NCBI GenBank assembly: GCA_027364845.1
Contig: DAHXOO010000013.1
Location: 1-47,086, forward strand
Direction of reading: 5' to 3'
DNA length: 47,086 bases
From: Pseudomonadota bacterium
GTDB lineage: Bacteria > Pseudomonadota > Gammaproteobacteria > Acidiferrobacterales > UBA6901
Below the pieces are notes generated by a model that was not told where the DNA came from, did no database searches, and was given only the letters and a program-made list of their open reading frames with translations. Both the position numbers and the translations under genes were made by a program. Shown piece after piece: positions 12,352 through 33,140 of this stretch. The stretch's first letter is position 1, and each line of letters starts with the position of its first letter.

Positions 12352-12368
12352 CATTTTAGTTTAAAATG
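12352..12368 (+). repeat. Small AT-rich inverted repeat between dnaG and rpoD
   Basis: CATTTTA (12352-12358) and TAAAATG (12362-12368) form a perfect 7-bp inverted repeat with a 3-base loop in the 78-base dnaG-rpoD gap. In E. coli this gap region is a site of RNA processing and of rpoD control, so a hairpin here could be a processing site or part of a promoter. It has no T-run and low stability; function is a guess. Confidence 0.3.
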
Positions 12369-12410
12369 AAACGTTATTTGTCAATATCTTCTGAACCGGA
12401 TTCCACCAGA

Positions 12411-14258
12411 ATGGATCAAGAAACTCAACGCCTGCAGCTCAGGAAACTCATCATTCAAGGGAAAGAGCAGGGGTTCCTGACGTATCGCGACATCAACGAC
12501 CATCTGCCCGAGGGTGTGCATGACACAGACCAGATCGAGGCAGTGATCAACATGATCAATGACATGGGGATCGAGGTCTACGATCAGGCGCCGGACCCTG
12601 ACACACTGCTGCTCAAGACGGAAGCTGTTGCTCCCGAGGACGAAGAGGTCACCGAAGAGGCCGAGCAAGTGCTGGTTTCTGCGGTGGAGAATGAGTTTGG
12701 TCGTACCACTGACCCCGTGCGCATGTACATGCGCGAGATGGGGACGGTGGAGTTGCTCACGCGTGAAGGCGAGATCGAGCTTGCCAAACGCATCGAAGAC
12801 GGCATACGCCAGAGCACCGAAGCCATTGCCACTTGTCCCGCCACAATTACCGATGTCCTGCGCATGATGGATATGGTCGAGGCCGAGCAGATGCGCCTCA
12901 CCGATTTGGTAGTGGATTTTGTGGACCCCAATGCGGTCGACGAACCGCCGCCGGAGCTTTTGAGTGACGAGAGCCGTGCAGCCGCGACTGACGACGCCGA
13001 CGAAGAGAACGATGAGGAAGGTGGCGGAGCAGCTGCCGATGAGGAAGGTGGTCCGGACCGTGAGGAGGCGCTCGCTCGGTTTACGCGCATTCGCAAGTTG
13101 CACGCCAACCTGTCCAAGGTTCTCGAGAAGAAGGGATTTAGTAGCCCGGAAGCGTCCAAAACCCAGCGGAAGCTCGCGGATGAGTTTCTGCAGATCAAGT
13201 TTGTCTCCAAGCAGATCAATCGTCTGGTGGAGCAGGTGCGCTCGCTAGTGGATCAGGCGCGGGAGCAGGAAAAGATCATCATGGACATCTGTGTCAGCAA
13301 GGCCCGCCTGCCACGCAAGACGTTCTTAAAAACTTTTCCTGGCCACGAGGCAAACCCGCGCTGGATCAAGAAGATCATAAAGTCGGGTGAATGTAACGTC
13401 GATGCGATAGAACGCAATTTGGCGACGATTACCGTAGCCCAGAACCGTCTTGCACAGCTGCAGGATCGCGTTGGCATGCCGATCGGCGAACTCAAGGAAG
13501 TGAACCGCCGCATGTCGATCGGCGAGGCCAAGGCGCGACGCGCCAAGAAGGAAATGGTCGAAGCCAACTTGCGTCTCGTAATATCGATTGCCAAGAAATA
13601 CACGAACCGCGGTCTGCAATTCCTGGATTTGATCCAGGAGGGCAATATCGGCTTGATGAAGGCCGTCGATAAGTTCGAGTACCGTCGAGGCTACAAATTC
13701 TCAACCTACGCGACGTGGTGGATTCGGCAGGCCATCACCCGCTCGATCGCCGACCAGGCGCGTACGATCCGCATACCTGTGCACATGATCGAGACGATTA
13801 ACAAGCTTAATCGCATCTAGCGCCAGATGTTGCAGGAGATGGGCCGAGAGCCGACCCCTGAGGAACTGGCGGTACGCATGGAAATGCCGGAGGACAAGAT
13901 CCGCAAGGTACTCAAGATCGCGAAAGAGCCTATTTCCATGGAAACCCCGATCGGCGACGATGAGGATTCCCACCTTGGAGATTTTGTCGAAGACACCAGT
14001 ATCACGGCGCCGACCGATGCGGCAACGTTGGCGGGCCTGAAGCAGGCGACGAGCGAAATTCTGAATACATTGACTCCGCGCGAAGCCAAGGTGTTGCGCA
14101 TGCGCTTCGGTATTGACATGAATACCGATCACACGCTGGAGGAAGTTGGCAAGCAGTTCGATGTGACACGCGAACGCATACGCCAGATCGAGGCCAAGGC
14201 GCTACGTAAGCTGCGCCATCCGAGCCGCTCGGACCACCTGCGCAGCTTCCTCGACTGA
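12411..14258 (+). CDS. rpoD: Primary sigma factor RpoD, interrupted by an in-frame TAG
   Basis: RNA polymerase sigma-70, a 615-residue frame if codon 470 is read through. Order: region 1.1 ([12 protein letters not shown]), region 1.2 ([21 protein letters not shown]), an acidic non-conserved region (about residues 165-235), region 2 ([17 protein letters not shown], then [10 protein letters not shown]), region 3 (GREPTPEEL) and region 4 ([20 protein letters not shown]). The frame is broken once: codon TAG at 13818-13820 stands where the family has Ser in NKLNRISRQMLQE. A single C-to-A change from TCG explains it; the reading frame before and after is the same. Without readthrough the product is 469 residues and loses regions 3-4. 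ATG 12411 is used because similarity begins there; an in-frame ATG at 12366 adds 15 unconserved residues. Neither start has a strong ribosome binding site. Confidence 0.93.
13818..13820 (+). other. In-frame amber codon inside rpoD
   Basis: TAG at the junction of sigma regions 2.4 and 3.0, replacing an expected serine codon. Other genes in the window end in TAG (for example the RRM gene, yqeY, gatB and the second HD-GYP gene), so TAG is an ordinary stop here and is not globally reassigned. No suppressor tRNA is encoded in the window. Confidence 0.9.
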
Positions 14259-14765: not shown

Positions 14766-15090
14766 GGGCCTGTAGCTCAGTTGGTTAGAGCAGGGGACTC
14801 ATCACAATGGTGCGCTCACATCGAGAAGGTGTGAGATGAACGGGATGAATTCAGGGAAACCGTAGCAATTCGGTTGCCGGCAATCCTGAGCCAAGCCGGG
14901 GGTACACCTCCGGAAGGTGCAGAGACTACCTGAGGACTTGAGTGTCCTTAATGACAGGCTCGAGCGTCCCGCACCCTGACGGCACGTGGTGGTATTGTTG
15001 TCACGGGTGATGAGATAGTCCGCTCCAGCTGGAAACGGCTGGGAAAAGTGAATCCCTTGGTCGCAGGTTCGAGTCCTGCCGGGCCCACCA
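14766..15090 (+). tRNA. tRNA-Ile2(CAU) with group I intron in the anticodon loop
   Basis: Exons 14766-14802 and 15051-15090 join to a 77-base tRNA with encoded CCA. The acceptor stem GGGCCTG pairs with CGGGCCC (one G-U pair), the D stem is GCTC/GAGC, the anticodon stem GGGGA/TCCCT with loop CTCATAA, and the T arm GCAGG TTCGAGT CCTGC is intact. Anticodon CAT can mean initiator Met, elongator Met or Ile2 (lysidine-modified). The anticodon arm and following bases (AGGGGACTCAT then AATCCCTTGGTCG) resemble tRNA-Ile2, and E. coli ileX also lies next to rpoD, so Ile2 is preferred over elongator Met. The 248-base insertion falls exactly after the third anticodon base. Confidence 0.9.
14803..15050 (+). 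ncRNA. Group I self-splicing intron (IC3-like) in tRNA-Ile2
   Basis: All core elements can be read. P1: exon CAU plus intron CA pairs with UGGUG across a CAA loop, giving the required U-G pair at the 5' splice site. P2: CTCACATC (14815-14822) with GGTGTGAG (14828-14835). P3: CGGGAT (14841-14846) with GTCCCG (14966-14971). P4: TTCAGG (14850-14855) with CCTGAG (14885-14890). Conserved R is GTGCAGAGACTA (14917-14928) and S is GAGATAGTCC (15012-15021), forming P7. P9 is CCAGCT/GGCTGG near 15024-15041, and the last intron base is G. There is no homing endonuclease frame. Insertion after anticodon position 36 of tRNA-Ile(CAU) matches the well-known Azoarcus ribozyme; the sequence core is of the cyanobacterial/proteobacterial tRNA-intron type. 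Confidence 0.93.
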
Positions 15091-15318
15091 TATTAGTTTC
15101 TAAACACACCCACGATAGTTGTGGGAGACAGCCTTTCACGACCAATCGGGCACGAGAGGGTGTCTTCCACGCGGACAATCGCCTCTGATATGCCTCATCC
15201 GTGATTCCTCCCCGGGGGGCGTTAAAGTCCGCTTTTTCGATCCAGGTTCTGCGCAGACATGAACCTGGTGCTGTCCGGGCAAGATGTTCGGCGGCGGTCC
15301 AAGCGATGGAGGAAGTCG

Positions 15319-17268
15319 ATGATTGGCGCACGATCCGAGGCCCTCACCACGCCCAGCGGTGTCCGCAAGTTCAGCCTGCTTTCTGATTACGATATCTTCC
15401 TGTTCAAACAGGGAAGTCACTTCCGGTTGTACGAAAAGCTTGGGTCGCACCACTTGGTTGCGGACGGTGTAGAAGGCACCTATTTTGGTGTTTGGGCGCC
15501 AAATGCGGTATCGGTGTCGGTGGTAGGCGATTTCAACGCCTGGCGCAGGTCGGAGCACCCGTTGCTCGCAAGGCAGGACGAATCGGGAATCTGGGAAGGA
15601 TTCATCGCCGGCGTTCCGGCGGGCGCCGTCTACAAATATCACATCAAGTCCCGATATCACGACTATGCGGTCGACAAGGCGGATCCTTTCGCCTTTCGTT
15701 TTGAGCTTCCACCGCGCACGGCGTCCATCGTGTGGGATCTCGATTACCAGTGGGGCGATGCGCAGTGGCTGGCGAGCAGGCACAAGTCCAACGCCCTCGA
15801 TGCTCCCATGGCAATTTACGAAGTTCATCTCGGCTCTTGGCGCCGGGTGCCTGAAGACGGCAACCGTTCATTGAGTTTCCGCGAACTTGCCATTCACCTT
15901 GTCGAGTACGTTCGTGCCATGGGCTTCACTCACGTCGAGCTTCTGCCGGTTTGTGAGCATCCGTTCTACGGTTCATGGGGTTACCAGACGACTGGGTACT
16001 TTGCACCGACAGCGCGCTATGGGGACCCGCAGGATTTCATGCACCTTGTCGATGCGCTGCACCAGGCCGGAATAGGCGTGCTGCTGGACTGGGTGCCATC
16101 ACACTTTCCCAGCGACGAGTTCGCGCTGGCGTATTTTGATGGAACCAACTTGTTCGAGCATGCTGACCCACGCCAGGGATTTCATCCCGAGTGGAAAAGC
16201 TACATATTTAACTACGGGCGCAACGAGGTGCGATCATTCCTCGCAAGCAGTGCTCTGTTCTGGCTCGACCGCTATCACGTAGACGGCCTGCGGGTCGATG
16301 CAGTCGCATCAATGCTATATCTCGACTACGCGCGTCAACCTGGAGAATGGGTACCGAACTTTTATGGTGGCAACGAGAATTTCGATGCGATGCATTTCCT
16401 GCGTGCCCTGAATCATACCGCCTACCGTGAATACCCGGACATCCAGATGACTGCCGAGGAGTCGACGGCTTGGCCCATGGTGTCCCGGCCAACCGACCTG
16501 GGCGGCCTGGGTTTCGGGCTGAAATGGAATATGGGCTGGATGCACGATACGCTGGAGTACTTTTCCAGGGATACGGTTTACCGTAAGTATCACCACAACC
16601 AGCTTACATTCAGCTTGTGGTATGCGTTTTTCGAAAATTTCATTCTTCCCCTGTCACACGACGAAGTCGTACATGGCAAAGGATCGCTCCTGGGAAAAAT
16701 GCCCGGCGATAATTGGCAGAAATACGCGAATCTGCGGCTGTTGTTCGGGTACCTTTACGCGCATCCTGGCAAGAAACTGATGTTCATGGGCGGGGAAATC
16801 GGTCAATGGAAGGAATGGAATCACGAGCAAAGCCTGGACTGGCATTTGCTGGGCGAGCAGGCGCACCGCGGGATCCAGCTTTGGGTCCAAGACCTCAATC
16901 GTGTCTATCGTGCCGAACCGGCATTGTACCAGCTGGACTTTCAGGCGGAAGGGTTTGAGTGGATGGACTTCCACGACTGGGAAAAAAGCGTCGTGAGTTT
17001 CGTACGCCGCGGCCGCAACCAGTCTGATACCGTACTTGTCGTATGCAATTTCACCCCAATGGTGCGATCAGATTACCGCATCGGTGTGCCTGATCCTGGC
17101 TTCTGGCGGGAATTGCTGAACAGCGATGCCGAGTGTTATGGCGGAAGCGGGGCTGGAAACCGCGGGGGCGTACAGTCTGCTCCGGTTGAAGCGCATGGAC
17201 GGCACCACTCCGTGTCGCTGACACTGCCGCCTCTGGCAGTATTGTTTTTCAAGTCCCCGGGTGGCTGA
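15319..17268 (+). CDS. glgB: 1,4-alpha-glucan branching enzyme
   Basis: GlgB introduces alpha-1,6 branches into glycogen. This 649-residue GH13 protein has a CBM48 N-domain (FGVWAPNAVSVSVVGDFN, about residues 55-75), then the TIM barrel with GLRVDAVASM (nucleophile Asp), MTAEEST (acid/base Glu) and LPLSHDEVVHGKGSL (transition-state Asp), and a C-terminal beta domain. It lacks the extra N1 domain of the E. coli enzyme, which is why it is about 80 residues shorter; both forms are common. ATG 15319 is preferred over ATG 15259 because GGAGGAAG lies directly upstream at the right distance. No other glycogen gene is nearby, so it is a lone glgB. Confidence 0.96.
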   Translation: MIGARSEALTTPSGVRKFSLLSDYDIFLFKQGSHFRLYEKLGSHHLVADGVEGTYFGVWAPNAVSVSVVGDFNAWRRSEHPLLARQDESGIWEGFIAGVPAGAVYKYHIKSRYHDYAVDKADPFAFRFELPPRTASIVWDLDYQWGDAQWLASRHKSNALDAPMAIYEVHLGSWRRVPEDGNRSLSFRELAIHLVEYVRAMGFTHVELLPVCEHPFYGSWGYQTTGYFAPTARYGDPQDFMHLVDALHQAGIGVLLDWVPSHFPSDEFALAYFDGTNLFEHADPRQGFHPEWKSYIFNYGRNEVRSFLASSALFWLDRYHVDGLRVDAVASMLYLDYARQPGEWVPNFYGGNENFDAMHFLRALNHTAYREYPDIQMTAEESTAWPMVSRPTDLGGLGFGLKWNMGWMHDTLEYFSRDTVYRKYHHNQLTFSLWYAFFENFILPLSHDEVVHGKGSLLGKMPGDNWQKYANLRLLFGYLYAHPGKKLMFMGGEIGQWKEWNHEQSLDWHLLGEQAHRGIQLWVQDLNRVYRAEPALYQLDFQAEGFEWMDFHDWEKSVVSFVRRGRNQSDTVLVVCNFTPMVRSDYRIGVPDPGFWRELLNSDAECYGGSGAGNRGGVQSAPVEAHGRHHSVSLTLPPLAVLFFKSPGG

Positions 17269-31682: not shown

Positions 31683-33140
31683 ATGCCCATGCATGAGAAG
31701 TCTGTCGCAGATCTATCTAATTCACTGAATAATAAGGATATTTCATCCCACGAGCTCACTCTGGCATATCTCGACCGGATCGAATCGCATCGCGAGCTCA
31801 ACGCCTTCATTACCGTCGATAGGATACGGGCCCTGGAGCAGGCGCAAGCGGCCGACGCGCGGCTGAGAACCGGCCAGGGCGGGCCGTTGACTGGAATACC
31901 GATTGCCCAGAAGGACATTTTCTGCACGGAAGGTCTACCCACGACCTGCGGGTCCAGAATGCTGGCAAATTTCGTGGCGCCCTATGATGCGAACGTCATT
32001 CAAAGATTCAACGCTGCCGGCTGTGTACTGTTGGGCAAGACAAATATGGACGAGTTTGCCATGGGGTCGAGCAATGAAACTTCCTTTTTCGGGCCGGTGC
32101 GTAATCCCTGGGACACGCACTGTGTTCCCGGCGGCAGCTCCGGCGGCTCGGCTGCGGCGGTGGCAGCTCGTCTTGCTCCGGCCGCGACCGGCACCGACAC
32201 CGGTGGTTCCATCCGTCAGCCGGCGGCGCTGACCGGAATTACCGGGCTGAAGCCCAGTTATGGGCGGGTATCGCGTTACGGCATGATCGCCTTTGCGTCA
32301 TCCCTCGATCAGGGTGGCCCGATGGCCAGAAGCGCTGAAGATGTGGCGCTATTGCTCAATGTCATGGCCGGATTCGATCCGCGCGATTCCACTTCTGTCG
32401 ATCGCCCGGTTCCTGACTTCACCCGCACCCTTGATGAATCGATTTCAGGTTTGCGCATAGGGCTGCCGCGCGAGTATTTCGGGGAGGGTCTGAGTGCCGA
32501 GGTCGGTCGTGTGATTGAGGCCGCGATCGAGCAGTACTGTAAGCTCGGTGCGCGGGTCGTGGACGTGAGTCTCCCAAACAGCAGACTCGCCATCCCCTGT
32601 TATTATGTACTCGCTCCGGCCGAGGCATCCAGCAACCTGGCGCGCTATGACGGCGTCCGCTATGGCTACCGCGCTCCCGAATACGCCGATCTATGGGAAA
32701 TGTACTCCAAGACCCGCGCCCAGGGTTTCGGTACCGAGGTCAAGCGCCGCATCATGATTGGAACCTACGCCTTGTCCGCTGGTTACTATGACGCCTACTA
32801 CCTCAAGGCGCAGAAACTGCGGCGACTCATCACCGGCGATTTTGACCGGGTCTTCGAGCATTGTGATGTGATCATGGGGCCAACCTCCCCGAGTACCGCG
32901 TTTGAGTTTGGCTCCAAGACGGACGATCCCGTCGCCATGTATCTGAGCGATATTTACACTATCTCGGTGAACCTTGCGGGGCTGCCCGGAATGTCGATCC
33001 CGGCCGGGTTCGACGGCAACGGTCGCCCGATCGGGTTGCAGATCATAGGCAGGTATTTCGATGAAGCCAGGCTGCTCAACGTTGCGCACAAGTATCAGCA
33101 GGCGACGGAGTGGCATCTGCGCGCACCGAGGGGCTTCTGA
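31683..33140 (+). CDS. gatA: Asp/Glu-tRNA amidotransferase subunit A
   Basis: Amidase-signature enzyme of 485 residues that releases ammonia from glutamine and passes it to GatB. The Ser-cisSer-Lys triad is seen as the Lys in PIAQKDIF, the cis-Ser in [11 protein letters not shown] and the nucleophile Ser in [13 protein letters not shown] 31683 gives the normal N-terminus; a further ATG six bases on is possible, while an upstream frame start at 31629 overlaps gatC and is not family-like. Confidence 0.96.

Follow-up and report, generated by a model that had tools for sequence, protein, structure and literature searches.

Introns of the group I family are known to splice themselves out in two transesterifications started by guanosine (PMC3984707). 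Reviews place bacterial tRNA introns in cyanobacteria and in some alpha- and betaproteobacteria (PMC4033280, PMC11408192). The Azoarcus representative is a group IC3 intron that resides in an isoleucine tRNA, where the anticodon CAU forms the 5′ splice triplet (PMC6274277, PMC3984707), and the tRNAscan-SE 2.0 paper describes tRNA-Ile2 group I introns in Acidovorax and Burkholderia (PMC8450103). Among group I ribozymes, a P7.1/7.2 extension between P7 and P3 belongs to the definition of the IA2 subgroup (PMC4498298, PMC1995217) and tells the Td ribozyme (IA2) apart from the ribozymes of Azoarcus and Synechococcus (IC3) (PMC4498298). Phage introns have been reviewed as lying in protein genes in all cases, despite the many tRNA genes of phages (PMC3984707).

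The window, which is the whole 47,086-nucleotide stretch of gammaproteobacterial DNA analyzed here, contains a tRNA-Ile2(CAU) gene that, read directly from the sequence, occupies positions 14766–15090 of the forward strand and is interrupted between U36 and A37 (Table 1). The inserted element is real and of a known kind, and what makes it worth following is its probable kinship with phage introns and its wide occurrence in gammaproteobacteria. As in Azoarcus, the interrupted gene is that of the same tRNA, with a CAU splice triplet and a guide of the GUG type. As in Acidovorax and Burkholderia, a tRNA-Ile2 gene is split by a group I intron and overlooked by tRNA finders, although the hosts in that case are betaproteobacteria (PMC8450103). 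The cyanobacterial and plastid tRNA-Leu(UAA) intron, also of group I, likewise interrupts an anticodon loop, but it lies in another tRNA and belongs to another lineage. The original prediction had placed the insertion exactly after base 36 and had expected its removal to restore a 77-nucleotide tRNA; joining the exons at 14802/15051 indeed yields an intact 77-nucleotide tRNA(cat) cloverleaf with the anticodon loop CTCATAA, distinct from the Met tRNAs.

Table 1. Parts of the split tRNA-Ile2(CAU) gene and its upstream neighbor (window coordinates).
Feature	Position	Strand	Remarks
rpoD	12366–14258	+	Conserved upstream neighbor; in-frame TAG at 13818–13820 in the assembly
5′ exon of tRNA-Ile2(CAU)	14766–14802	+	37 nt; anticodon CAU at its end, U36 last base
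Group I intron	14803–15050	+	248 nt; C first, G last; RF00028 70.5 bits; splice sites from tRNA restoration
Internal guide GUG	14810–14812	+	Pairs with exon CAU (14800–14802) as P1 with U-G pair; GUG in 55/55 relatives
P2 hairpin	14815–14835	+	8 pairs, all covarying
P3 5′ strand	14841–14847	+	Partner 14965–14971; 97.8% of cells paired
P4 5′ strand, P5, P4 3′ strand, start of P6	14850–14892	+	Placed helices and 51-sequence alignment
P6a hairpin	14896–14913	+	100% of cells paired; covariation in 5/6 pairs
P7 5′ strand (R element)	14924–14928	+	Partner 15016–15020 (S element); guanosine-binding helix; invariant in 51 sequences
P7.1 hairpin	14929–14958	+	Two stacked helices between P7 and P3; 99.6–100% paired, double changes
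P3 3′ strand	14965–14971	+	Placed helices and 51-sequence alignment
P8 hairpin with variable extension	14972–15009	+	Core of 5 pairs mostly conserved
P7 3′ strand (S element)	15016–15020	+	51-sequence alignment
P9 hairpin, GAAA tetraloop	15025–15042	+	89.8% of cells paired; covariation in 5/6 pairs
3′ exon of tRNA-Ile2(CAU)	15051–15090	+	40 nt; A37 to encoded CCA

The assignment to group I is carried by a covariance match and by covariation. The Rfam search that had been proposed as a check returned a significant match to RF00028 (14790–15042; model positions 1–253 of 253; 70.5 bits against a gathering score of 50 bits; E = 5.4e-16); Rfam matches nothing else in the window, and RF00028 matches nothing else in the genome. 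For covariation, the window intron was aligned with 50 introns from other genomes, and helices P2–P9 were placed on the window sequence. Across these 51 introns, 94.8% of the helix cells pair, compared with 33–45% when the partners are slid; double-sided changes occur in 34 of the 61 pairs, and the covariation score was reached by 0 of 500 shuffles. Covariation backs the P3–P9 core, including the P7/P3 pseudoknot, while P7 and P6 are invariant, as is expected of the catalytic center. All 55 of the extracted tRNA-Ile2 introns end in G, and all 55 carry a GUG close to the 5′ end that can pair with the exon CAU, which bears out the predicted terminal G and U-G splice pair. The pre-tRNA folds with a z-score of −3.5 relative to shuffles. 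The predicted absence of a homing endonuclease gene is borne out as well, as the window's list of open reading frames holds no frame of note within the intron (14803–15050); a 127-residue antisense frame (14948–15331) runs through the tRNA and looks spurious. On this sequence evidence, the insert is very probably a self-splicing group I intron in tRNA-Ile2(CAU), and its RNA almost certainly cuts itself out. ARAGORN run without introns overlooks the split gene, and because tRNA finders overlook such genes, their genomes seem to be without an AUA-reading tRNA. In the opposite direction, the ARAGORN call of a tRNA-Arg(ccg) at 32141–32227 is a false positive: the coding sequence that contains it reads as an amidase motif.

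In the proposed pathway, the transcribed intron would fold into the P3–P9 core, the guide GUG would pair with the anticodon CAU as P1, and bound guanosine would cut the RNA after U36; U36 would then be joined to A37, freeing a 248-nucleotide RNA and restoring the anticodon loop. Lysidine (C34) and t6A (A37) would be introduced afterwards, on the spliced tRNA. That these modifications follow splicing, as had been proposed, is reasonable to infer because they need an intact anticodon loop. A second tRNA-Ile2, intronless or otherwise, did not turn up in the genome; the other CAU tRNA detected there (L199) has a different anticodon stem and is of the elongator-Met type. AUA makes up 10 of the 80 Ile codons in three genes of the genome, and tilS is present. 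With a single tRNA-Ile2, AUA in use, and tilS at hand, the intron must be removed for AUA to be decoded, and since no other copy was found, splicing is probably essential.

It is highly improbable that the intron has decayed within a dying gene, AUA being read by another tRNA. The adjacent rpoD does carry an in-frame stop in the assembly, but the core helices are all intact and retain their invariant positions, the intron is kept in the four other genomes of the genus, and neither an intronless tRNA-Ile2 nor a CAU tRNA other than that of the elongator-Met type was found to take over. The other members of the genus encode Ser (TCG) at the position of this TAG (13818–13820), and the genome yielded no second close rpoD. 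The TAG is probably an assembly or sequencing error, as TAG also ends other long frames here.

The relationship to the Azoarcus intron, which had been suggested by the shared tRNA and site, is less straightforward. The site is indeed the same, but the window intron carries a P7.1 hairpin between the P7 5′ strand and the P3 3′ strand, both helices of which covary among the 51 introns, and the core of the window intron clusters with those of phage introns, so that the window and Azoarcus introns probably belong to separate lineages. The Azoarcus intron is described as being without P7.1/7.2 (PMC4498298), and two betaproteobacterial introns at the same tRNA site, from Polynucleobacter (L031) and a Burkholderiaceae genome (L096), were compared in its stead; both are without P7.1, and P7 leads almost directly to P3. 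Identity to these two is 50–55%, compared with mostly 72–94% among the gammaproteobacterial tRNA-Ile2 introns themselves. IC3 introns have no P7.1 extension and a core that groups with IC3-type tRNA introns; the window intron differs in both respects and instead has the IA2-like extension between P7 and P3 (14929–14958). A tree of the core (101 columns, with P1, P2, and P7.1 removed; proteobacterial tRNA-Ile, -Leu, and -Arg introns as IC3-type references) separates the IC3-type introns (betaproteobacterial tRNA-Ile, tRNA-Leu, and tRNA-Arg) from the P7.1-type introns (gammaproteobacterial tRNA-Ile2 and phages) with a support of 97/96, and places the window intron on the phage side. The AU test rejects a clade of gamma- and betaproteobacterial tRNA-Ile2 introns only marginally (p = 0.036; p = 0.018, likewise marginal, with phage and Verrucomicrobiota tRNA-Ile2 introns added).

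A single origin of the gamma- and betaproteobacterial introns, in which the window intron would be of the Azoarcus type (IC3) with a gained hairpin, would explain the shared tRNA, position, and GUG guide, and the AU p-values of just 0.018–0.036 leave room for it. It would also accommodate a Verrucomicrobiota tRNA-Ile2 intron (L073) that has P7.1 yet falls with the betaproteobacterial introns in the core tree, and because of which P7.1 is not a clean lineage marker. We nevertheless consider a single origin unlikely, since the 97/96 split is obtained without the P7.1 columns, the identities divide in the same way, and introns in phage protein genes carry the same P7.1 sequence at the same position. 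The window intron is thus probably a member of a lineage that bears P7.1 and includes phage introns, rather than of the IC3 lineage of Azoarcus.

The phage members of this P7.1-bearing group include split tRNA genes. A search with the pre-tRNA finds jumbo Klebsiella phages, with 71–73% identity over the 5′ part, and in Klebsiella phage Muenster (L216) and phage OU509535 (L217), at about positions 700–1000, a CAU tRNA is interrupted at the same site by an intron with P7.1 that scores 104 and 90 bits, respectively, against RF00028. The split tRNA, near which there is an HNH endonuclease gene, is missing from the annotation of the Muenster record. Another CAU tRNA with an intron of this type at this site is found on a viral contig (L219). 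Given the joined exons, ARAGORN calls tRNA(cat) for OU509535 and L219 and refuses that of Muenster, which has an unusual D-loop. The introns of cyanophage psbA and of a Vibrio phage terminase gene (terL) also bear the P7.1 insertion. Taken together, these IA2-like phage introns (psbA, terL, and Klebsiella tRNA) match the window intron in their core and in the position of P7.1; they differ in that most lie in protein genes, and their identity of about 71–79% covers part of the intron only. Phages may be the route by which the intron entered. Two further viral contigs carry group I matches of other kinds: five lie within about 2 kb of an IMG/VR contig (L211, 9185–11250), and one lies inside a tmRNA match (L213, 5907–6534).

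Among gammaproteobacteria, the intron is more widespread than the original prediction, which called such introns sporadic, had suggested. Of 145 sampled genomes, counting the window's own, 25 carry the intron in their tRNA-Ile2 and 91 have an intronless gene (called by an exact pattern); none has both, and 29 were assigned to neither class. Since the relatives with an intron never hold an intronless copy, the intron must be removed in those cells as well. It is present at the same site in all five genomes of the window's genus and in 18 of 57 genomes of its order, where it occurs in four of seven families. A pattern search of the contigs gave at least 120 loci, which were mostly chance matches, and only clean tRNA-Ile2 frames were kept; a class-wide pattern search was set aside as too loose.

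The neighboring rpoD had also been pointed out. It does adjoin the tRNA gene, but is uninformative about the intron: most intron-bearing loci have rpoD immediately upstream, and so do 29 of 30 intronless ones, which rules out a linkage special to the intron. As this linkage is common to intron-bearing and intronless genomes, the rpoD-linked locus is the ancestral arrangement, in which the intron has come and gone. A promoter scan from rpoD to the next gene found nothing.

Within this ancestral locus, the comparison with related genomes that had been proposed points to descent that is mostly vertical, with repeated loss, as distances between introns rise with those between rpoD genes (Mantel r = 0.58, n = 44, 0 of 5000 permutations; within the order r = 0.69, 16 loci, 0 of 5000 permutations). 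Several host groups come out on the intron tree, among them the window's genus, Woeseiaceae together with their allies, and pairs from two families of the sample (f2 and f6). A predominantly lateral spread would fit the patchy presence, which takes no fewer than 10 changes when placed on a tree of rpoD from 75 loci, and phages with CAU-tRNA genes bearing the same intron type would supply the means. The window's genus also nests within another family, f7, on the intron tree; monophyly of f7 is not rejected (p = 0.56), however, and acquisition of the intron from f7 is not supported. Lateral transfer is an improbable explanation for most of the present distribution, given also the correlated distances and the occurrence of the same rpoD-linked locus with or without the intron. 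A further point against it comes from a metagenome-assembled genome (L116, 313–700) in which rpoD and an intronless tRNA-Ile2 are followed by the 3′ half of a group I intron and of the tRNA; this locus, which matched the tRNA pattern and was excluded from the trees as a relic, is likely a trace of loss by replacement, or else an assembly artifact. The plasmid matches listed cover tRNA parts only and leave the intron uncovered.

The guide sequence appears able to change its target. A related P7.1 intron lies within a tRNA-Lys(CUU) gene (L012; genome G067, C134, 1454–1767), where its guide is GAG and would form U-G, A-U, and C-G pairs with the exon CUU; the same genome also has an intronless tRNA-Ile2. 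The intron seems to have moved into a new tRNA and to have had its guide retargeted, and the joint change of guide and exon (CAU/GUG and CUU/GAG) provides an independent check on the P1 pairing. In the broadest reading of these comparisons, on which we are evenly divided, two unrelated lineages would have settled independently at position 36/37 of tRNA-Ile2, namely IC3 introns of the Azoarcus type in betaproteobacteria and P7.1-bearing, phage-related introns in gammaproteobacteria; phages with split CAU tRNAs may be the vehicle of the latter, whose guide can be retargeted to Lys CUU. The loci described here form a broad gammaproteobacterial collection, at a fixed locus that is probably essential, together with phage split tRNA genes. 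With them one can test how an intron that lacks its own endonuclease arrives at one tRNA site and persists there, and whether phages are its carriers.

Other split genes were observed along the way. In genomes of the window's order, tRNA-Leu(UAA) genes interrupted by group I introns occur at L187, L188, L189, and L193, of which L187, L188, and L193 have them within Gly-Cys-Leu tRNA clusters; the tRNA-Leu(UAA) introns of relatives of the window's genome fall on the IC3 side of the core tree. Further possible split tRNAs of Met, Arg UCU, Arg CCU, and one unclear type occur in relatives (L185, L190, L191, L194, and L030), and in four loci of the same class (L015, L023, L029, and L192), the introns apparently reside in 23S rRNA.
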